Positions 49,228-59,786 of a stretch of DNA of 64,000 nt are shown here, one piece after another (within the stretch, counting starts at the first letter, position 1; each line of letters opens with the position of its first letter). Made by a program: the position numbers and the translations under genes. Source of the stretch: Lysobacterales bacterium (GTDB taxonomy: Bacteria > Pseudomonadota > Gammaproteobacteria > Xanthomonadales > SZUA-5); assembly GCA_022844135.1 (NCBI GenBank), contig JALHMG010000014.1, positions 5,555-69,554 of the forward strand, written 5' to 3'. Under the pieces are notes generated by a model. The model was not told where the DNA came from. It ran no database searches and worked only from the letters and a program-made list of their open reading frames with translations.

Positions 49228-50760
49228 TCAAGCCCCCGGCAACAAGCGCTTCATCCACGCCAGGAACTTTGGCATATCCAGCGGCTTGGCGAGGAATGCG
49301 TCGGCGCCGGCGGCTTTGGCGGCCTGACGCGTATTGGTGTTGTTTGCGCCGCTGAAAACGATGATCGATCCGGTGTAACCACGGAGACGCAACTCTTGCG
49401 TCACTGCCAGCCCAGAGCGCACACCGAGATCGACATCGATGATGATCAAACCTGGCGGCTGCGCAGCCACACGCGCCAGCAGCACCGACGGATCGTGGAT
49501 CAATTGCGGCATATAGCCGATTTCGTGCAGCGACCACACCAGCATCTCGGCGACATCGGGATCATCGTCGACGATGATCACGCGCTCGCTCTGCACACGC
49601 AGGCTGGGCTCGGCGCGCGCTGCAGCCGGCTCCAATGCTGCGGCACGTTCAGGTAGCACGATCTGGATGCGAGTACCCACGCCCACAGCCGACTGTAATG
49701 CGATCGTGCCGCCCATCTGCTCCACGAGTTGCTTGACGATCGATAAGCCTAGACCCGCGCCTTCGCAGCCCTGCTGGGCTCCGCGGTTGAGCGGCTCGAA
49801 GATAGTGTCCTGATACTCAGATGCGATGCCGATGCCGGTGTCGGTCACGCGCAATGTCAATTGATCGCCGTCGTAGCGCAATTCGACATCGACCTTGCCT
49901 TCGCGCGTATAGCGCACCGCGTTCGACACCAGATTCAGCAGGATCTGCCGCAAGCGCAGATCGTCGAACACGGGCATCTTCTGTACAGTCGATTGCCAAT
50001 CGACGTTGAGCCGAAGGCGCTTGCCATCGGCCATCGGGCGGATGATGGATTCGACATCTTCGGCCAGTTGTTCGAGCGCAAACGGATGGGCCAGCAGCGG
50101 CGCGCTGCCATTGTCGGCCGCAGCCAGATGCAGCAAATTCTCGGCCAGGTTTTTCAGGTAAGTGGCGTTTCGCTGGATGGCAGACAGCGCACGCATCGTG
50201 ACCGGATTTTCGGCCAGATGCGGTTCCAGCAGCGCGGCATAACCGCTGATCGATGTCAGCGGCGTGCGCAGATCGTGCGACAAGGTATCGATCAGGCGCC
50301 GCTGAAATTTGTGGATCTCGTTCAAAGCCGCAGATTTGGCCTGCAACTCGTCGCGGACGGCTTTGAGCTCGCGAATGGTCTTGGACTTCTCGACGTTGGC
50401 GAGCGCCAGTTCGTTCGCAGCCTGCTGCCGTTCGGTGAGCTCTTCGCCGCACATTTCGGCGTCGGTCACGATGATGTGATCGTTGGGTTTATCGGGCACC
50501 CAGAGGATCGAGGTATGGCGACGATTGCCGATGTCGACCAGCGGCCAGACCGTCAGGCGCTCGGCATCGACACCGACCAGCAGATTACGCACCAACTCCA
50601 GCACCGAGCCGAAATCGCCATTGCGAATGCCATACAGCGCTGGATCGCCCTCCACGCTGAGCACCTGACGCTGCCGAAACACCGTCAGGATCAACGGCTT
50701 CGAGCGCTCCATCAGGAATCTCGTCAGCGCGCCCTGGACCACACTGGCCGCCTTGGTCAT
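49228..50760 (-). CDS. Soluble hybrid histidine kinase with C-terminal receiver domain
   Basis: 510 residues from ATG 50760 (MTKAASVVQGALTRFLMERS). A ~130-residue N-terminal PAS/GAF-like domain and a short coiled coil (ELALANVEKSKTIRELKAVR) are followed by HisKA (IDTLSHDLRTPLTSISGY), HATPase_c (N-box NLVSNAVRYTREG, G1 DTGIGIA, G2 GAGLGLSIVKQLVEQMGG) and a REC domain (VIIVDDDPDVAEML, acceptor Asp in LIIIDVDLG, FSGANN, AKPLDM). It has no transmembrane segment, so its input must come from a partner. It is the last gene of a coupled set: its ATG overlaps the GTPase stop by four bases. The sensor may therefore be the upstream OmpA-like protein or the GTPase. Confidence 0.92.
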   Translation of the reverse strand: MTKAASVVQGALTRFLMERSKPLILTVFRQRQVLSVEGDPALYGIRNGDFGSVLELVRNLLVGVDAERLTVWPLVDIGNRRHTSILWVPDKPNDHIIVTDAEMCGEELTERQQAANELALANVEKSKTIRELKAVRDELQAKSAALNEIHKFQRRLIDTLSHDLRTPLTSISGYAALLEPHLAENPVTMRALSAIQRNATYLKNLAENLLHLAAADNGSAPLLAHPFALEQLAEDVESIIRPMADGKRLRLNVDWQSTVQKMPVFDDLRLRQILLNLVSNAVRYTREGKVDVELRYDGDQLTLRVTDTGIGIASEYQDTIFEPLNRGAQQGCEGAGLGLSIVKQLVEQMGGTIALQSAVGVGTRIQIVLPERAAALEPAAARAEPSLRVQSERVIIVDDDPDVAEMLVWSLHEIGYMPQLIHDPSVLLARVAAQPPGLIIIDVDLGVRSGLAVTQELRLRGYTGSIIVFSGANNTNTRQAAKAAGADAFLAKPLDMPKFLAWMKRLLPGA

Positions 50761-51257
50761 GGCCGCTCCGTCACGCGCTGGGCCAAGGTTGTGAAGGCTG
50801 CCTCCACACCTTCGCCACTGAGCGCACTGGTACGAAATGTGGGAACACTTTCGCTCAACCGCGCGATATCGGCGGAGGACACTTCCCAGCGATCGATCAT
50901 ATCGAGCTTGTTGATCATCAACACCACGGGTACCTGGGCGAGTTGCTTTTGCGACTGCATCCACAAATACAAGGCCGCGCGCAGCGACGCCTCGCGCGTG
51001 CCATCGACGACCAGCATCAAGCCATGCGCACCGCGGATGTAGGTTTTGTTGAGGCTGTCGAGCTCGGCCTTGCCCGCCAGATCCCATACCACCAATTTGA
51101 CGGCGCGGTCGGTGAGCCGCACCTCTTTGCTATCGACTTTGACACCGACGGTCGTCAGATATTTGTCAGAAAAGGTATTACGCACGAAGCGCGCGACAAG
51201 ACTGGATTTGCCTACGGCGAAATCGCCCAAGAGACAGATTTTTCGGGCCTCGCTCAC
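50757..51257 (-). CDS. Rab/Ras-like bacterial small GTPase
   Basis: 166 residues consisting only of a small G domain: G1 GDFAVGKSS, G2 Thr in YLTTVGVKV, G3 WDLAGKAEL, G4 NKLD and G5 SALSGEG. The layout is Rab/Arf-like rather than TRAFAC-translation-like. The residue after DxxG, catalytic Gln in Ras/Rab, is Lys here, so intrinsic hydrolysis may be slow or may need a partner. Family members act as membrane-recruited switches, for example MglA in myxobacterial polarity. It overlaps both neighbours by four bases (start with the OmpA-like gene, stop with the kinase), which makes a physical link with both plausible. Confidence 0.92.
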   Translation of the reverse strand: MSEARKICLLGDFAVGKSSLVARFVRNTFSDKYLTTVGVKVDSKEVRLTDRAVKLVVWDLAGKAELDSLNKTYIRGAHGLMLVVDGTREASLRAALYLWMQSQKQLAQVPVVLMINKLDMIDRWEVSSADIARLSESVPTFRTSALSGEGVEAAFTTLAQRVTERP

Positions 51258-52894
51258 CGAATCTCCCAGTGCATGGTGGCTTTTGGCGCCAACGCTTGCG
51301 GATTGTCGACCGCGATAACGATCTGATCCGCGCCCACTCCCGCGGCGCGCAATGAATCATGCAGGATTTGCGCGCGTTCGGCACGCAAAAGGCGATTGCG
51401 GCGTTCGCTTCCGCCTTCGTCGCTGTGGCCGGTCACGGTCGCTGCAATGCGCACATCCAGCGACTGCGCCAGTTCGACCAGACGCCGCACCTCGGCCACC
51501 AGAGCCGACCGCTGGTCCGCATCGACGTCTGCGCTGCCGCGCGGAAACACCAGCGCGCGGCGATTCAGCTCCTCGGCAAGCGCTTGCAATCGCTCGCGCG
51601 CCGTCGGGCCGATTCGCAGCGCGCGGGTGTCGACATCGCGCACTCCCGCAATCGCCGACGCCAGCGGCAGGTAACGCTCGGCCCAGGCAGAATCGACCTC
51701 GCCGGAGAGCGCCAGAACACCGCGCTCGACACGCACCGACGCCGTCGCCGGTATCGCCAACGTGCGTTCGGCGCGACGCGCGATGGGCATATCGTCGAGA
51801 CTCAAGAACGCAATTTCGTCGACCTCCACCGGGCCACCGAATTGCTTTTCCAGGTGTGCAACACTGCGCGCATCCGGGTCGCGCAAGAGCTGGAGTTGCC
51901 ACACACCATTGCGGTCGAGTGCGATCAGCCGCCAACCCGGCTCGGCCGCCACTATCGACTGCAACTGCGCGCGTTCGCGGCCTTGCTCGATGCGCTGCCA
52001 GATCAGCCAGGAAAAGCCGATGGCGAGAAACAGCGCCAAAACGATCCACGGCCACTTCGGCATCGGAGCGCGTTGCTCTTCGCCGCGAACGACGAGCGCA
52101 GCAGTCACGTCGAGCGCTCGCGCTGCCTCGATCGGCCAATCGAAGCCTGGAACGCCCGCGGCGCCTCGATGCAGGTCTTCCAGCTTCTGGCTCAAACGCT
52201 CATGCAGCGCGGCCGGCGGAACGCCGCGGACAAAGGCGGCAAGCGTTGCCTGCGGGCCTTCGCGCACCAGCAGCAAATGCTCGCCGACTGTCGCCGACGC
52301 CAGCGACCCGCCGCCCGGCGCCTGCACCGAATCGCGCACGAAATCGCCGATTGCGGTGAGCATGCCGGCGATCGCGTCCGCATCGAGATCGGGCAACTCG
52401 GGCGCCGAATAGCGATACAGCAAAATGCCCGCTTCGCGTTCGATGAGAAACAAATGATCGATGCGATAGCTCAATGTGTGTTTGAGCACGACCTGGGCAA
52501 ACGGCACGCCGCTGCGCCAGGATTCCAGCCGCCAGCGCAGGCCGCGCGGCGTGAAGCTCATTTCCATGGCCCGATTAATGTCGAGCACAAAACCGCGCAG
52601 CGCCTCGGCAATCGCTTTCCGGATGGCCGGTCCGATGATTGGAAACAGCGCATCGACGATGCGCTGCGGCGCGCGCCGCACGCTGTCATCGAGCGCTGCC
52701 GCAACGACAGGACTCAAGGCCTGATGCAAAGCTGGCTTTGCGGGCCCCTGCTCGGCCGCCTCAATCAATGCCGGCAGTTGTTGCGCCAGATCGGCATGCG
52801 CATCGCTCAGTGCGTCGATCTGCGCCTGCTGGCGCTGCAGTGCTCGCCGCTCATCGCCCAGCAGCAGCTCGCGCAGTTGCTGGTATTTCGTCAT
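51254..52894 (-). CDS. OmpA-family inner-membrane protein with a large cytoplasmic N-terminal domain
   Basis: 546 residues. The cytoplasmic N-terminal ~275 residues contain LRELLLGDERRALQRQQAQI and SVRRAPQRIVDALFPIIGPA followed by IRKAIAEALRGF, a domain I recall in uncharacterised OmpA-like proteins of Proteobacteria and Cyanobacteria. One transmembrane helix follows near 278-298 (WPWIVLALFLAIGFSWLIW). Then come a BON-like segment (VRVERGVLALSGEVDSAWAE) and a C-terminal OmpA/MotB peptidoglycan-binding domain (RRALVFPRGSADVDADQ, TVTGHSDEGG, RAERAQILHDSLRAAGV). The protein should link the cell wall to the cytoplasm. It lies between the coiled-coil gene (3-bp gap) and the GTPase gene (4-bp overlap). 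Confidence 0.85.
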   Translation of the reverse strand: MTKYQQLRELLLGDERRALQRQQAQIDALSDAHADLAQQLPALIEAAEQGPAKPALHQALSPVVAAALDDSVRRAPQRIVDALFPIIGPAIRKAIAEALRGFVLDINRAMEMSFTPRGLRWRLESWRSGVPFAQVVLKHTLSYRIDHLFLIEREAGILLYRYSAPELPDLDADAIAGMLTAIGDFVRDSVQAPGGGSLASATVGEHLLLVREGPQATLAAFVRGVPPAALHERLSQKLEDLHRGAAGVPGFDWPIEAARALDVTAALVVRGEEQRAPMPKWPWIVLALFLAIGFSWLIWQRIEQGRERAQLQSIVAAEPGWRLIALDRNGVWQLQLLRDPDARSVAHLEKQFGGPVEVDEIAFLSLDDMPIARRAERTLAIPATASVRVERGVLALSGEVDSAWAERYLPLASAIAGVRDVDTRALRIGPTARERLQALAEELNRRALVFPRGSADVDADQRSALVAEVRRLVELAQSLDVRIAATVTGHSDEGGSERRNRLLRAERAQILHDSLRAAGVGADQIVIAVDNPQALAPKATMHWEIR

Positions 52895-52897
52895 GCG

Positions 52898-53563
52898 CTA
52901 CTTGCGCGCCAACGGCAGTTCGAACTCGCCTTTCAAGCGCAGCGCGACTTCCGTCAGCAACGCGGCCAGATCGCTGCGCCCAACTTTGTCGGCACGCAGA
53001 TCCTGGTCCGATCTGCCGAGCGCGGCACGGAGTTCGCTGGCGCGATCGAGCAATTGTTGCTGTAGTTCGCCAAGCTCCTCGCGCAATCGCGCTTCGCGCG
53101 TACCGAGATCGTTCTCCAAGGATTTCACCGCACCCTGCAATTCCGCGCGCATCGTGCGCTGCGCTTGCAAGGTACGCGACTCCAGATCGTCGACACCCTG
53201 GGTTCGATCGGCGGTCTCTTGCTTGAGCGCCTTGCCGAGCTTGTCGAACTCAGCATCGAGTCGCTTGTCGAGCATTCCCAAGCGCTTTTCCATCTCTTGC
53301 CGCAAACGCGAGTTCTCATCATCGACCCGCTGGGTGAGTTCAACGAAGCGCCGCTCGTAGTCGCGCATCTGGCCGCCGAATAAAATGTCGCGGATTTGAT
53401 CGACGTTGCGGTCCTGTGGGTTTTCGTTCATCGGTGCACTCCGAAGGGGCATCACGGGCTGTGTGCCCGGTTTTGGTTCAGCAGTAGTCTTCGTCGCACG
53501 CGCGGGCTTGGTTGCCGGCGCACGTTTGCGCGCTGGCTTGACAGATTTCCTGGTGATGGCCAT
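52898..53563 (-). CDS. Coiled-coil cytoplasmic protein, partner of the OmpA-like/GTPase set
   Basis: 221 residues. A Lys/Ala/Pro-rich N-terminus (RKSVKPARKRAPATKPARAT) is followed by IRDILFGGQMRDYERRFVEL, which echoes the LRELLLGDERRALQRQQAQI start of the OmpA-like protein. A long coiled coil (about residues 75-190) rich in Glu, Arg and Leu follows. No membrane segment or signal peptide is present. The shared I/LR-x-I/L-L-x-G motif suggests that both proteins bind the same target or each other; this is inference. It is first in the coupled set and lies 71 bp after the anti-sigma-like gene. Confidence 0.75.
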   Translation of the reverse strand: MAITRKSVKPARKRAPATKPARATKTTAEPKPGTQPVMPLRSAPMNENPQDRNVDQIRDILFGGQMRDYERRFVELTQRVDDENSRLRQEMEKRLGMLDKRLDAEFDKLGKALKQETADRTQGVDDLESRTLQAQRTMRAELQGAVKSLENDLGTREARLREELGELQQQLLDRASELRAALGRSDQDLRADKVGRSDLAALLTEVALRLKGEFELPLARK

Positions 53564-53634
53564 CGCGATTCCCGGCTACGCGGATGAAGCAAACATTACA
53601 TTTTTGCAGCCCGGTCTGCGAGAGCCACGCGCGG

Positions 53635-54633
53635 CTATCGCGGCCAATGCCGTTCGGCCAGATCGCTCGGCCACTGCTCGCGAGGGACCTCACGCTTGAG
53701 TGCGTCCAACAACGCTTTGACGCGCTCGGCATCGCCCGTCGCCAACGCCGTGCGCAATTGCGCAAAGCGCGGATCGAACTGTGCGTCCATCGTGCGCGCT
53801 TCATCGCGAGGCTGTTCGTGAACCGGCTCAGGCGGCGCCGGCGCGGACAAAGGCGCTGGCGATAGCTCAGCCGGCGCAGACTTTGTGGAAGGAGGCGCAG
53901 CAGGAGCCGGCGGCGCTGCTGGCTTGGCCACTGGCAACGACAGTGCTGGATCGGGAACGAAGGGCTCCTGCGGAGCGTCGGCGACGACTGGTGCAGGGCC
54001 TGGCAATGACTCTTGCGCGGCCGTCGCGAGCGTTTCGTCATCCAGAGCCGCGCCAGGGCCCTCAGGCCGGGCAACGCCCAGCTTGTCGCTCGGTTGCTCC
54101 ACCCTTTTCGCCACCGCTGCATCAGCACGTTGCAGATCAGATTCGAGCGATTCCGGCGAAACCGAAACTGGCGATTGCACGCGAGATGTCGCCGAAGCCG
54201 GATTATCGGCCAAACTGGAATCGGCTGGCGTCGTGGCCGGCGTCCCAAACGTGATTGCCTCACCCGGCTCCTCCTCTCCGGTTTTTTGAGGGACGCGGGC
54301 GCGTTCCATCTGCGCAGGCAAAACCTCGGACGACAACGCTTCGGGAGCCACCGCCGGGGCGCTTGGCGGCGCTGTGGACAACGGGCTCGCTGGCGGTGGC
54401 ATCGTGGCCATCGGCGCCATCGCATCGGGCACGCGCTCGGCAACGCGCAGCCAGGACGCGGCGCCGACCACCAACACCAGCGCTGCCGCCACGTTGATCC
54501 AGGTCGGCAGGCCGCGCCTTCGCAGCGCAGCCACGGCCCTGGCGCGGACCGCAGCCGTCAGCTCGGCGCTCGGAACCGGCCCTGGCGCACGACGAAGCGC
54601 ATCGATCACAAGCTCGTCTGGCTCGCGCTTCAT
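53635..54633 (-). CDS. Membrane protein with anti-sigma-factor layout
   Basis: 332 residues. A short cytoplasmic N-terminus (MKREPDELVIDALRRAPGPV ... AELTAAVRARAVAALRRRG) is followed by one transmembrane helix (WINVAAALVLVVGAASWL), a ~200-residue Pro/Ala-rich linker and a conserved-looking C-terminal helical segment (FDPRFAQLRTALATGDAERV). Its ATG overlaps the stop of the ECF sigma gene (ATGA), the classical position of a cognate anti-sigma factor. There is no HxxxCxxC zinc motif. The anti-sigma role is inferred from position and topology. Confidence 0.65.
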   Translation of the reverse strand: MKREPDELVIDALRRAPGPVPSAELTAAVRARAVAALRRRGLPTWINVAAALVLVVGAASWLRVAERVPDAMAPMATMPPPASPLSTAPPSAPAVAPEALSSEVLPAQMERARVPQKTGEEEPGEAITFGTPATTPADSSLADNPASATSRVQSPVSVSPESLESDLQRADAAVAKRVEQPSDKLGVARPEGPGAALDDETLATAAQESLPGPAPVVADAPQEPFVPDPALSLPVAKPAAPPAPAAPPSTKSAPAELSPAPLSAPAPPEPVHEQPRDEARTMDAQFDPRFAQLRTALATGDAERVKALLDALKREVPREQWPSDLAERHWPR

Positions 54634-55172
54634 CGCAACGCCTCCTTGAGCTTGGCCAGCGCATAGCGCAGCCGCGACTTGATGGTTTCCCGCCCGGTGT
54701 TCATGGTTGCGGCGATTTCCTCCAAGGTCAGATCGCCCTCGGCGCGCAACAACACTACGGCGCGTTGCTCGGCAGGCAGCGTATCCAGGGCATCGACCAG
54801 ACGCTGCAGCTGGGCTTCGTCTTCGATGGCCTGCAAAGGCGCGGCGCTGGTATCGGGGAAATGCGCCAGCACGCTGACGTCGACTTGCGGCTGCTCGCGC
54901 CGAATGTGATCGATGGCCAGATGGTGCGCAATGCGAAACAGCCAGGCTGCGAACCGTGCCGTGGGCTGGTAACGTTGGCGCGCGTCGATCGCGCGTTGCC
55001 AGGTGTCCTGGAACAACTCCTCCGCCACCGATGGCCGCTGGACCAGCCGCGTCAGATAGCGCAACAAGCGCGTTGCGAAACGCGCGTACAGCGCATCGAA
55101 CGCGCGCGCGTCGCCGGCGGCATACGCCAGCATGAGCTGCTCATCGCTTCGGTCCTGTCCAACGGGTTCCAT
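54630..55172 (-). CDS. ECF-type RNA polymerase sigma factor
   Basis: About 180 residues from ATG 55172; a longer in-frame start at 55238 is unlikely. Region 2 is SDEQLMLAYAAGDARAFDAL, LTRLVQRPSVAEELFQDTWQ and FAAWLFRIAHHLAIDHIRR. Region 4 is LDTLPAEQRAVVLLRAEGDL, TLEEIAATMNTGRETIKSRL and RYALAKLKEAL. It is a sigma-70 family ECF factor that would direct RNA polymerase to a small regulon, probably held by the coupled membrane protein downstream. The divergent FHA gene starts 103 bp away. Confidence 0.93.
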   Translation of the reverse strand: MEPVGQDRSDEQLMLAYAAGDARAFDALYARFATRLLRYLTRLVQRPSVAEELFQDTWQRAIDARQRYQPTARFAAWLFRIAHHLAIDHIRREQPQVDVSVLAHFPDTSAAPLQAIEDEAQLQRLVDALDTLPAEQRAVVLLRAEGDLTLEEIAATMNTGRETIKSRLRYALAKLKEALR

Positions 55173-55275
55173 CCGCGCACGATAGCGCGTCGCGTGGGGC
55201 GGCCAAAAGCATGGCTGGAGGGTGGTCGCGTAGGTCATACTTCACCCAACGCATCGGGGCGACCGTTGGGGTTTT

Positions 55276-55665
55276 GTGGATCGCATCATCATCGAGTTCT
55301 TGAATGGAACACGCGTGGGGCTGGTCGAGGTCTACCCAGCCGCGCGCTTCGCCAGCCTTTATCTTGGCCGCGACGCCAAGTGCGATGTGCGCCTGGATTC
55401 AGACAGCGACACGATGGTCTCGCGCAATCATGCTGTCATCGAATGGGTCGACGAAGACAAGCTCCGGCGTTACACGCTGTCTGACTTATTGAGCAGCAAT
55501 GGCACGTACTTGAACGGCGAACGCGTGCTCGGCACCGTGGCGCTGCGCGATGGCGACATCGTCCGTCTGGGCGCTCAGGGCGTCGAATTCCGCGTGCGTA
55601 TCGAAAAGGCCATTCGCAGCGGCGACAACGAAGTCACCCAGTCGATACGCGGAGTCCGGTCGTAG
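55276..55665 (+). CDS. FHA-domain protein
   Basis: 129 residues from a GTG at 55276. Nearly all of it is one forkhead-associated domain: LYLGRDAKCDVRLDSDSD, MVSRNHAVIEW, then SDLLSSNGTYLNGERV and DGDIVRLGAQGVEFRV. The Arg of LGR, the Ser of SRNH and the Asn of SNGTYLNG are the usual phosphothreonine-binding residues. FHA domains read out Ser/Thr kinase activity, and a Hanks-type kinase gene lies at the right end of the window. The gene diverges from the ECF sigma gene, so the two may be co-regulated. Confidence 0.92.
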   Translation: MDRIIIEFLNGTRVGLVEVYPAARFASLYLGRDAKCDVRLDSDSDTMVSRNHAVIEWVDEDKLRRYTLSDLLSSNGTYLNGERVLGTVALRDGDIVRLGAQGVEFRVRIEKAIRSGDNEVTQSIRGVRS

Positions 55666-57427: not shown

Positions 57428-58114
57428 TTAACCAACACGCTCCAGGCGATAGCCAATTCCATACACGGTACGCAGCAAGAGACCATTGCGCGGCTCCAGG
57501 CCGAGCTTCTTGCGCAATCGGTACACTGCGGTGTCGAGGCTGCGCGAATCGACCATGCCGCGCGCGCCCGAGATGCTGCGTGCCAACTCATCGCGCGTAA
57601 TCAACGTACCGACATTGCCGAAGAACAACCATGCAAGCAGGAATTCGCGATCGCTGATATCCACCTCTTCCCCATTGACCAGTGCGCGTCCCACGCGCCG
57701 GTCCAGGCGGATATTGCCGATACTGCGTTCGTTGTCGTCGCGCAGCGCATTGGTCCGACGCAGCTGGGCATTGACGCGCGCGATCAGCTCCAGACTGCGA
57801 ACGGGCTTGCTGAGAAAATCGTCGGCCCCTGCGCCAAGCGCGAGCACTACGTCGGCCTCGGTATCGCGATGCGTGACGAACAAAACGGGCGTGCGAATGT
57901 TCAGCGCGCCGCGCATCAGGCGCACGATTTCGATGCCAGAGATATCCGGCAGTTCCCAATCGAGAACCACCAACGCAAAACGCCTTTGCGCCAGCGCCGA
58001 GACAAGCTTGCGCCCATCCTCGAAAGCGGTGACATCAAAACCGGACTCAGTGAGCACGCGCGCCAAAAAGCGGCGGATGTTGTCGTCGTCCTCGACAATG
58101 GCGATCGCGCTCAT
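57428..58114 (-). CDS. OmpR/PhoB-type response regulator
   Basis: 228 residues. The receiver domain has acidic pocket IVEDDDNIRRF, acceptor Asp in VVLDWELPDISG, switch Thr in FVTHRD and Lys in LSKPVRSLEL. The winged-helix DNA-binding domain is RSLDTAVYRLRKKLGLEPRN with GLLLRTVYGIGYRLE at its end. Its ATG overlaps the stop of the sensor kinase gene (four bases), so the pair is translationally coupled. The input signal and target genes are unknown. Confidence 0.94.
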   Translation of the reverse strand: MSAIAIVEDDDNIRRFLARVLTESGFDVTAFEDGRKLVSALAQRRFALVVLDWELPDISGIEIVRLMRGALNIRTPVLFVTHRDTEADVVLALGAGADDFLSKPVRSLELIARVNAQLRRTNALRDDNERSIGNIRLDRRVGRALVNGEEVDISDREFLLAWLFFGNVGTLITRDELARSISGARGMVDSRSLDTAVYRLRKKLGLEPRNGLLLRTVYGIGYRLERVG

Positions 58115-59580
58115 GGCTTGTTCTCCATTTGCTTCGCTAGGATCGCGCGCCTCGATGGCGGCGCGCGCAACACATCGGCCAGGAAGTGCAAAGTGGCTTC
58201 GAAATGCTCGCCATCGGCTGCCATGCCGGCGGCGAAACTGACGCCGTGTTGTTTGGCCACGCTTTCTACATAGCGCAAGCCCAGGCCGAGACCAGGACGA
58301 CGCTTACCCGGTTCCAGCACTTGGTTGCGTGCCCGAAACTGCGTGCCCAATGGACTGCGCGTGGAAACCAGAATCACGCTACTCCCCGGCGGGCTGTGTT
58401 CGATAGCGTTGTGCAAGATGTTGCTGACCACGCGCAGCAGGGATTCGCGATGACCGCGCACGGTGACCTCGTCGTTGCCCACGAGCGCCAGTTCGATACC
58501 CACCGCACGTGCATGCGTCCACCAGGTTTGTACCGCTTCATCGATCACTTCGTGTAGCGGAATCTGTTTGAAGTTCTTGGGTTCGAGCGTACTGGCCTGC
58601 AGCAGCGCCGCCATGTTCTCGGCCCAACGCAGTCCCAGACGCGCCAGTCGCCGGATCTCTACGAACTGTTGAGGCGTCGGCGTCGTCGGCGCCACATGTT
58701 CATCGCCCGTCACCGCCAGAATCGACGACAACGGATGCCGCAAATCGTGCATGAAAAAAGTCAGCAACTGATCCCGCTGACGCTTCAAGTGGTGCGTGGC
58801 GCTAACATCCAGCACCGACCACAACCACATTTCGCGATCGCCCATCAGCCGGGTTTGATTGACCACGAAATGCCGTTCGCTCTCAGGGTCGAAGAACTCG
58901 CCGGTCCGAGGCGTTCCTGCCAGTTTCACTGCGAGCGCTTCGAGAAACGGCGCAGGCGCAACGCGACTTTCCAAGCCAAGCAAAGTCTGGGCAGTGGTAT
59001 TGAGCAGCACACGTTCCTGATCCTGCAGAATCATCGCAACGGGAGAACCATCGAACACGCCGCTCAGCAGCGCGTGCGAGTCATGCAAGGTCGCAAGATC
59101 GCGATGGATCTCTGCGATCCACGCCGCAAATGCGTCAGAACCGACCGGCGGTTGGTCGGACCGCGAGTTTCCGGTTGCGTCGAACACCGCCTCGGCCAGT
59201 CGCGTCAACTCCTGCCGCAGAACGCGGCGGCTTCTCGTCAATCGTTCCAACTTCAACCCCAGCCAATCGACGCCGATGACCAGCGATGCAGCGAGCGCAG
59301 GCAAAGCCATCTGCGCGTACCTCAGCGATAGATAGCCGGCGAGCAAGAGCAGCGCGACCGCACTGGCCGCGATCGCCGCCGAACGACGTGGCCGCCGCCG
59401 CTGCAGCCACGCGACGATGGTCACGAACAGTAGTACCGGCAGCGACCATAGCGCCGACCAGACAGCATCGACGCCTTGCACATTCGCAAGCGCGGACCAC
59501 GCCATCTCAATGAGCGCCGCAAAACCCGTGGCGACCAGCAGCGCCAGCACCAGCGTCGGTAGCAAAACGCCGAGCCGCAT
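58111..59580 (-). CDS. Sensor histidine kinase with degenerate ATP-binding motif
   Basis: About 489 residues from ATG 59580 with GGGAG nine bases upstream; a GTG at 59604 is also possible. Four hydrophobic segments lie in the first ~130 residues (LGVLLPTLVLALLVATGFAA, LWSLPVLLFVTIVAWL and two more). A PAS domain follows (LLSGVFDGSPVAMILQDQER), then HisKA (FFMHDLRHPLSSI) and HATPase_c with N-box NILHNAIEHSP and G2 RPGLGLGLRYVES. The G1 box, normally DxGxG, reads ARNQVLEPG, so nucleotide binding may be altered. It pairs with the overlapping response regulator gene. Confidence 0.88.
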   Translation of the reverse strand: MRLGVLLPTLVLALLVATGFAALIEMAWSALANVQGVDAVWSALWSLPVLLFVTIVAWLQRRRPRRSAAIAASAVALLLLAGYLSLRYAQMALPALAASLVIGVDWLGLKLERLTRSRRVLRQELTRLAEAVFDATGNSRSDQPPVGSDAFAAWIAEIHRDLATLHDSHALLSGVFDGSPVAMILQDQERVLLNTTAQTLLGLESRVAPAPFLEALAVKLAGTPRTGEFFDPESERHFVVNQTRLMGDREMWLWSVLDVSATHHLKRQRDQLLTFFMHDLRHPLSSILAVTGDEHVAPTTPTPQQFVEIRRLARLGLRWAENMAALLQASTLEPKNFKQIPLHEVIDEAVQTWWTHARAVGIELALVGNDEVTVRGHRESLLRVVSNILHNAIEHSPPGSSVILVSTRSPLGTQFRARNQVLEPGKRRPGLGLGLRYVESVAKQHGVSFAAGMAADGEHFEATLHFLADVLRAPPSRRAILAKQMENKP

Positions 59581-59786
59581 TCGAATTCGCTCCCGCTTGA
59601 CCACCTCTCAGGCTAGCAAACGTGAGCGGCGATGCACGTCAAGAGCGGCGAGTTTGCGCTTTCAATTCTCGCGAATTCTCACAGCGGCCCCGGCGTCGGC
59701 GCAGGCGCCCAACGATCTGTGACTCAATAGGTCGGCGATTCGATCGCCAACCCACTCATGCGCGTTTTGCGCTCAAGGAAACCACT

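Follow-up and report, generated by a model that had tools for sequence, protein, structure and literature searches.

A four-gene locus resembling the Group 1 Rup GTPase systems, with a predicted longin/Roadblock-like domain in its OmpA-like protein

The Group 1 Rup GTPases have been described as the bacterial proteins most like Rab, Ran, Ras, and Rho (Wuichet and Sogaard-Andersen 2014, PMC4316618; repeated in PMC4915359). According to the passages on these systems in PMC4316618, the GTPase lacks the Gln of its G3 motif and is accompanied by a coiled-coil protein, by a protein with a conserved unknown domain that is often followed by a transmembrane (TM) helix and an OmpA domain, and by an output protein with an invariant N-terminal Gln, either a cyclic di-GMP enzyme or a kinase; by the same account, experimental characterization was lacking for all members of the Rup family as of 2014, and transcription had been shown for one. 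Here, we analyzed 64,000 nucleotides from a Lysobacterales bacterium (GenBank assembly GCA_022844135.1, contig JALHMG010000014.1, positions 5,555 to 69,554; hereafter the window, in which all positions are numbered). Four consecutive minus-strand genes in this window, encoding a coiled-coil protein, an OmpA-like protein, a small GTPase, and a soluble hybrid histidine kinase, fit the 2014 prediction of a Group 1 Rup system, and the cytoplasmic domain of the OmpA-like protein, left unknown at that time, is predicted to have a longin/Roadblock fold of the kind that controls eukaryotic Rab proteins.

An earlier, sequence-only reading of this DNA had placed these four genes, together with an ECF (extracytoplasmic function) sigma factor and its membrane partner, in one signaling unit of six. 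Direct inspection of the sequence bore out the six open reading frames (ORFs), their coordinates, and their junctions, which in gene order are an ATGA overlap, gaps of 71 bp and 3 bp, a GTGA overlap, and a second ATGA overlap (each overlap being 4 bp). The four downstream genes share with the Group 1 Rup systems of PMC4316618, as its passages present them, every component of the set. An adjacent cytoplasmic coiled-coil protein (52898..53563; 221 amino acids [aa]) gives only weak coiled-coil matches in Pfam. Next to it is a protein made up of a conserved domain, a TM helix, and an OmpA domain (51254..52894; 546 aa). The single-domain Ras-superfamily GTPase (50757..51257) falls, with its 166 aa, within the 150 to 240 aa of the group; it matches the Ras family at 116 bits and has G1, G3, and G4 motifs, the G3 motif (WDLAGK; 51069..51086) being without the catalytic Gln. 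The place of the output protein is taken by a kinase (49228..50760; 510 aa) with an N-terminal invariant Gln pair (Q112-Q113), which, as the sequence-only reading had it, is both hybrid (Pfam HisKA, HATPase_c, and Response_reg) and soluble (no membrane-like stretch by hydropathy). No MglB is coupled to these genes; the organism's own genome had no Robl_LC7 match at E≤1e-6, and no ordinary MglB was found there. The pairing of OmpA-like protein and GTPase that the earlier reading mentioned for other bacteria matches the Group 1 Rup neighborhood as given in those passages, and its remark that no function had been described holds insofar as we found no later functional work, the gene set itself having been described in 2014. 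Among the literature matches listed (subscription journals being outside the scope of the search), “Rup GTPase” led only to PMC4316618 and “Rup proteins” in that sense also to PMC4915359, which only cites the family; none of them combined longin with OmpA as well as GTPase. The 2014 passages treat the domain as unknown and, for Group 1 Rup, mention neither a linked response regulator nor a shared motif; to their picture we add a predicted longin/Roadblock fold, a PAS-QQ junction in the kinase, an LR.LL.G-type motif, and an OmpR-type partner.

The gene neighborhood of the OmpA-like N-terminal domain was surveyed in two sets of genomes. Searching 61 genomes (own included) with the OmpA-like protein gave 27 matches; two of these, G018 and G051, matched the OmpA domain alone (about 2e-4) and were set aside, so that 24 genomes remained besides the window's own. 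The genes for the coiled-coil protein, OmpA-like protein, GTPase, and kinase had the same order and direction in all 24 relatives, the coiled-coil orthologue adjoining the OmpA-like gene in each. The second set comprised the best 80 of 101 loci, partly from the same genomes as the 24 relatives (hereafter the named loci), where a locus was counted as having room if its contig extended far enough. With room, the coiled-coil gene lay upstream in 73/75, the GTPase gene downstream in 64/69, and the kinase N-terminal domain downstream in 60/69; wherever all four genes were found (60 loci), their order was kept. The survey that the sequence-only reading had proposed as its check therefore upholds a unit of four conserved genes. 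Three Nitrospirota loci (L131:9176-10975, L150:7797-9596, and L152:9313-11112) have, after the GTPase gene, a gene for a 599-residue protein that the kinase N-domain profile does not match.

The OmpA-like protein has one membrane-like stretch by hydropathy, at about residues 280 to 302 (TM helix at about residues 281 to 302; 51989..52054), and its domains together with this stretch suggest a cytoplasmic N-terminal half, one TM helix, and a periplasmic part that ends in the OmpA domain. The latter (residues 450 to 527; 51314..51547) scored 27.1 bits in Pfam, marginally below the cutoff of 27.2. It contains D492 and R507, a pair set 15 residues apart that recurs in 22/24 sequences, which is to say in 22/22 of those with an OmpA domain; the spacing is that of the diaminopimelate-binding pair of Acinetobacter OmpA. 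Across 60 sequences, the cytoplasmic half is the most conserved part of the protein, with P85, I91, G156, A174, M178 to I182, F185, and G224 invariant. Some members are far longer, with 885 to 1471 residues (L149, L153, L154, L160, L167, L168, and L169); in the two whose starts were inspected (L149 and L167), the N-terminal region is followed by long insertions that resemble coiled coils, and some of the loci with these long proteins have the GTPase gene elsewhere in the genome.

AlphaFold2, given residues 1 to 285 of the OmpA-like protein and 59 relatives, produced a model with a predicted local distance difference test score (pLDDT) of 85.5 and a predicted TM-score (pTM) of 0.58, the latter as expected because a long helical arm accompanies one compact domain. 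From residue 144, the model runs beta-beta-alpha-beta-beta-beta and then through three helices to residue 272; it thereby has the longin/Roadblock element order beta-beta-alpha-beta-beta-beta-alpha, with three helices after the last strand. In Foldseek, all 27 PDB matches at E≤0.001 were chains of Roadblock/longin entries: MglB (11 chains, among them the top three matches), Asgard Roadblock, AP sigma subunits, Fuzzy-Inturned/CPLANE, TRAPP, Mon1-Ccz1, p14/MP1, Ragulator, and GATOR1-Rag/Gtr-Ragulator entries, where the identity of chains within large complexes is presumed, with entry titles as a guide. VIA-align gave a Z of 13.9 to 2j3t_D (210 residues, from the Bet3-Trs33-Bet5-Trs23 TRAPP complex and taken by us to be Trs23), with 124 residues aligned at 2.8 Å. 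It further gave a Z of 11.9 to Asgard Roadblock3, of 11.5 to Myxococcus xanthus MglB (105 aligned, 2.5 Å), of 10.5 to 11.6 to Mon1-Ccz1 entries, and of 10.5 at rank 50; the VIA-align superpositions on MglB were at 2.2 to 2.7 Å over about 105 residues. By the aligner's own guidance, models that match nothing clearly tend to peak at a Z of 7 to 8, or at 14 if mostly helical, and chance arrangement can bring models with long helices to 13 to 14, which counts against the top score; the part matched here is the alpha/beta region of residues 142 to 271 (52082..52471). The predicted fold would suit a GTPase partner, in line with the sequence-only reading, in which the cytoplasmic domain, the GTPase, and the kinase seemed adapted to relaying a cell-wall signal.

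The domain might instead merely share an alpha/beta core with Roadblock and longin proteins and act as a passive anchor, the GTPase being regulated elsewhere. The Foldseek superpositions on MglB were indeed loose (root mean square deviation mostly 10 to 15 Å; target TM-score of about 0.5), and a profile comparison by hhalign with 21 bacterial Roadblock proteins (from 30 loci, 9 having been dropped for ORF length or frame) was not significant, at an E of 0.076 and a probability of 0.7% with the strands in register, five controls giving 0.083 to 0.5. Related folds were also retrieved for the PAS-like domain of the kinase; for that model, by contrast, nothing matched at E≤0.001 and Z never exceeded 8.0, against the uniformly Roadblock/longin matches and the sustained Z of the OmpA-like domain. 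The domain and the GTPase also travel together: of 276 genomes from the class, with the organism's own among them, 24 had the cytoplasmic domain (E≤1e-5), 24 had a close GTPase (E≤1e-25), and 23 of the 25 with either had both, G223 and G070 being the exceptions (Fisher tests on co-occurrence, 3e-31 and 2e-26, for genomes that are related and with the tighter GTPase cut chosen afterwards). We consider a passive anchor improbable on these grounds.

Absence of the G3 Gln is general in this family: it is missing from 95 of 96 GTPases (71 from named loci and 25 order-level, in overlapping sets), and the 96th (L143), whose motif is irregular, is also without it. In that regard, the N terminus of the kinase is of interest. 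AlphaFold2 modeled residues 1 to 150 with a pLDDT of 90.9, predicting a PAS-like domain at residues 1 to 101 (50458..50760) that runs into a long helix. Its element order fits PAS, and the structural matches to PAS were weak, the best being an SrrB PAS domain in Foldseek (3e-3) and a phytochrome PAS region in VIA-align (Z of 8.0), with Roadblock chains also listed. Near the start of the long helix, Gln112 and Gln113 (50422..50427) are invariant in 25/25 kinases; a wider, redundancy-filtered set has both in 57/60 and one in the other 3. We infer that this region is the site of the invariant Gln of PMC4316618, for which, in the passage concerned, its authors speculated about help with GTP hydrolysis in trans. 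A GTPase without the G3 Gln and a kinase with a conserved QQ would fit a supply of Gln in trans without proving it. The phospho-acceptor His is present in 24/25 kinases. Stand-alone PAS-like QQ domains, without a kinase, are encoded shortly after the GTPase gene in three loci (L133:9406-9816, L156:5246-5647, and L158:9403-9834), which suggests an independent role for the N-terminal domain.

The coiled-coil and OmpA-like proteins have a helix motif in common. The motif of the former (VDQIRDILFGGQMRDYE; residues 54 to 70; 53354..53404), which includes VDQIRDILFGG, resembles the start of the latter (YQQLRELLLGDERRALQ; residues 4 to 20; 52835..52885), which includes LRELLLGDE. With a matrix built from 53 of 60 OmpA-like N termini and about 186 windows ranked per coiled-coil protein, the top-scoring 17-mer was the motif in 69/69 of the coiled-coil proteins that match the motif expression, out of 76 examined; of the remaining 7, six have variant motifs by eye, and L095 is truncated. 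The position of the motif is consistent and its likeness weak. Both proteins may dock through this helix to one partner or to each other.

A candidate for the downstream end of the system emerged from genes linked to the core in other genomes. An OmpR/PhoB-type regulator is encoded directly upstream of the coiled-coil gene in 15/24 relatives (in a 16th, L054, by a weak receiver match) and upstream of the core in 32/75 named loci with room; Tahibacter, Dokdonella, and Marinicella are cultured relatives that have such a linked regulator. The window's core has no linked OmpR-type regulator; an orphan of this type elsewhere in the same genome (C45:11726-12430) is 71% identical to the linked regulators of L043 and L045. 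Its orthologue occurs in 8/9 family genomes, own included: five are on noncore contigs and are 89 to 95% identical, and those of G002 and G005 lie in core contigs and are 70% identical. The ninth genome, G007 (84% complete), is without both the regulator and the OmpA-like gene. A second orphan, on C30, is 38 to 52% identical to ten linked regulators and remains a candidate; the identities for L087 and L088 were unusable owing to short alignments. The OmpR-type regulator encoded within the window at 57428-58114 was rejected as a partner of the core, because it shares only 34% identity with the regulator linked to the core in L039 and the C45 orphan fits far better; in that analysis the C30 orphan reached 49%. 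With the neighboring kinase gene, that regulator gene forms a pair (57428-59604) in which the kinase has a HATPase match of 21.6 bits against a Pfam cutoff of 26.4 and is possibly degenerate. We regard the C45 orphan, not the ECF sigma factor, as the likely output of the core.

The genomes split the 6 ORFs into two units because the four core genes are conserved together and the sigma factor is found elsewhere. The ECF sigma gene (54630..55238 or 54630..55172, minus strand; Pfam Sigma70_r2/r4) may start at 55238 rather than 55172, because a by-eye comparison found its frame conserved upstream of 55172 in a sister genome. The gene for its membrane partner (53635..54633, minus strand) encodes a protein that matches no Pfam family and contains no cysteine, and therefore lacks the zinc-type anti-sigma motif (HxxxCxxC); an identity as a zinc-type anti-sigma factor was rejected on both counts. 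No sigma-like ORF occurred in any of the 24 stretches fetched around the core in relatives, some of them shortened by contig ends, or in any of the 80 named loci, with both strands checked. Sigma orthologues do exist in the family (90% identity in the same genus), and in 7/7 other family genomes having both, sigma gene and core lie on different contigs; several of these contigs are short, and in the sister genome G001 both sites are more than 35 kb inside theirs. In the window, an FHA gene (55276-55665, plus strand) is divergent to the sigma gene (the pair spanning 54630-55665). The same FHA gene adjoins sigma in 5 of 9 fetched sigma contexts, two of which also show the membrane partner by sequence, and a core gene lies beside sigma in none of the nine. 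The words “sigma factor” do not occur in PMC4316618, and the juxtaposition of sigma and core was seen in the window's genome only, among the genomes examined. We judge the sigma pair to be a separate unit outside the core and, by its looks, an unrelated neighbor. That all 6 genes form one signaling unit, as the sequence-only reading had claimed, is very improbable in the face of these distributions, even though they share one strand here and the 71-bp gap would permit read-through; what stands of that unit is the set of four. A scan for sigma-70 promoters found 0 sites against 1.9 expected. The 71-bp gap (53564-53634) contains a TGTAAT hexamer before the coiled-coil gene that could be the core's own −10 box, and GCTAA-like boxes were seen upstream of the coiled-coil gene in some relatives (five upstream regions, by eye only).

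From the observed gene set, its conservation and co-occurrence, and the predicted folds, we infer contacts between the products, a direction of signaling, a guanine nucleotide exchange factor (GEF) or GTPase-activating protein sense, and phosphotransfer, which together would let these four genes, as a Group 1 Rup system, act as a trans-envelope switch that controls a Rab-like GTPase, a proposal to which we give about an even chance. The OmpA-like protein would grip periplasmic peptidoglycan and span the inner membrane. On the cytoplasmic side, its longin/Roadblock-like domain, probably dimeric, would bind the GTPase and set its nucleotide state, by analogy with MglB acting on MglA and with TRAPP or Mon1-Ccz1 acting on Rabs. 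A change in the wall would alter this platform, and the soluble coiled-coil protein could join or compete by way of its own, similar helix motif near the N terminus. In one of its nucleotide states, the GTPase would then dock on the PAS-QQ-coil segment of the soluble kinase and turn it on or off, one kinase Gln perhaps aiding GTP hydrolysis in trans, and the kinase would feed the OmpR-type regulator encoded elsewhere in the genome.

Several observations weigh against this scheme. The fold call rests on prediction, and a fold alone is no proof of GTPase binding; Pfam searches with 60 members gave scattered weak matches, with a weak Robl_LC7 match in 1/60 (E of 0.028), and a PDB sequence search with the cytoplasmic domain gave one match, to an unrelated protein (E of 0.34). 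Two OmpA-like proteins of 455 residues (L048:8574-9938 and L049:2879-4243) keep the cytoplasmic domain and hydrophobic stretch without an OmpA domain. The GTPase gene is not adjacent in 5/69 named loci with room, and of 6 genomes without an adjacent GTPase, 5 have it elsewhere and in 1 it was not found. The search's own GTPase cut of 1e-10 admits 30 genomes with a GTPase, of which 7 lack the OmpA-like domain, and the cut of 1e-25 was chosen after the list had been inspected. The kinase of L044 (L044:10881-12296) has Thr at the position of the phospho-acceptor His, with the QQ motif kept. Finally, the median score of the shared helix motif was 5.4, compared with 5.3 for the 95th percentile of shuffles, and exceeded the 99th percentile in only 23 of 76 proteins.

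The flow could also run inside out, as proposed for the actinobacterial conservons: the soluble kinase would use its PAS-like domain to sense a cytoplasmic cue and would set the GTPase, which in turn would act on the envelope through the longin-OmpA protein. That the kinase has a PAS-like domain of its own would suit such a direction, as would the loci in which the kinase is absent or replaced (the stand-alone N-domains of L133, L156, and L158 and the other protein of the three Nitrospirota loci); in the passages concerned, PMC4316618 proposes that the output of conservons is the GTPase and draws a comparison between these and the Rup systems. The OmpR-type regulator, linked to the core in 32/75 named loci with room and co-occurring unlinked in the family, fits the kinase as output instead, and we regard the reversed flow as unlikely, if less so than a passive anchor.

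Three other known kinds of system come close to the trans-envelope switch proposed here. MglA/MglB of Myxococcus and Thermus likewise pair a small GTPase with a Roadblock-fold partner, but MglB, in the published passages, is a separate protein recognized by Pfam, whereas here the domain shares one polypeptide with a TM helix and an OmpA domain and goes unrecognized by Pfam, and the GTPase here is without the G3 Gln. The actinobacterial conservons (CvnA-D), as outlined in PMC4316618, also cluster a kinase, a Roadblock-type protein, a protein of unknown function, and a small GTPase; that outline differs in giving them a membrane-spanning kinase, no response regulator, and an MglA-type GTPase, and it names no OmpA protein. 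The longin Rab GEFs TRAPP and Mon1-Ccz1 are the closest structural matches of the predicted domain and have a Rab-like GTPase as partner, but they are eukaryotic, heterodimeric, and without a wall anchor.

If the predicted longin/Roadblock domain is true, it would explain how a wall-bound protein signals to a Rab-like GTPase. We tentatively suggest, at somewhat less than even chances, that a peptidoglycan-anchored transmembrane longin/Roadblock regulator gates a Rab-like GTPase in a wall-to-cytosol circuit that predates or parallels TRAPP/Mon1-Ccz1 and has a soluble hybrid kinase and an OmpR-type regulator as its output. A named likely regulator domain, candidate docking motifs, and a specific response regulator make the Rup system testable with purified proteins and bear on the question of how long ago Rab-like GTPases came to be paired with platforms of the longin/Roadblock type.

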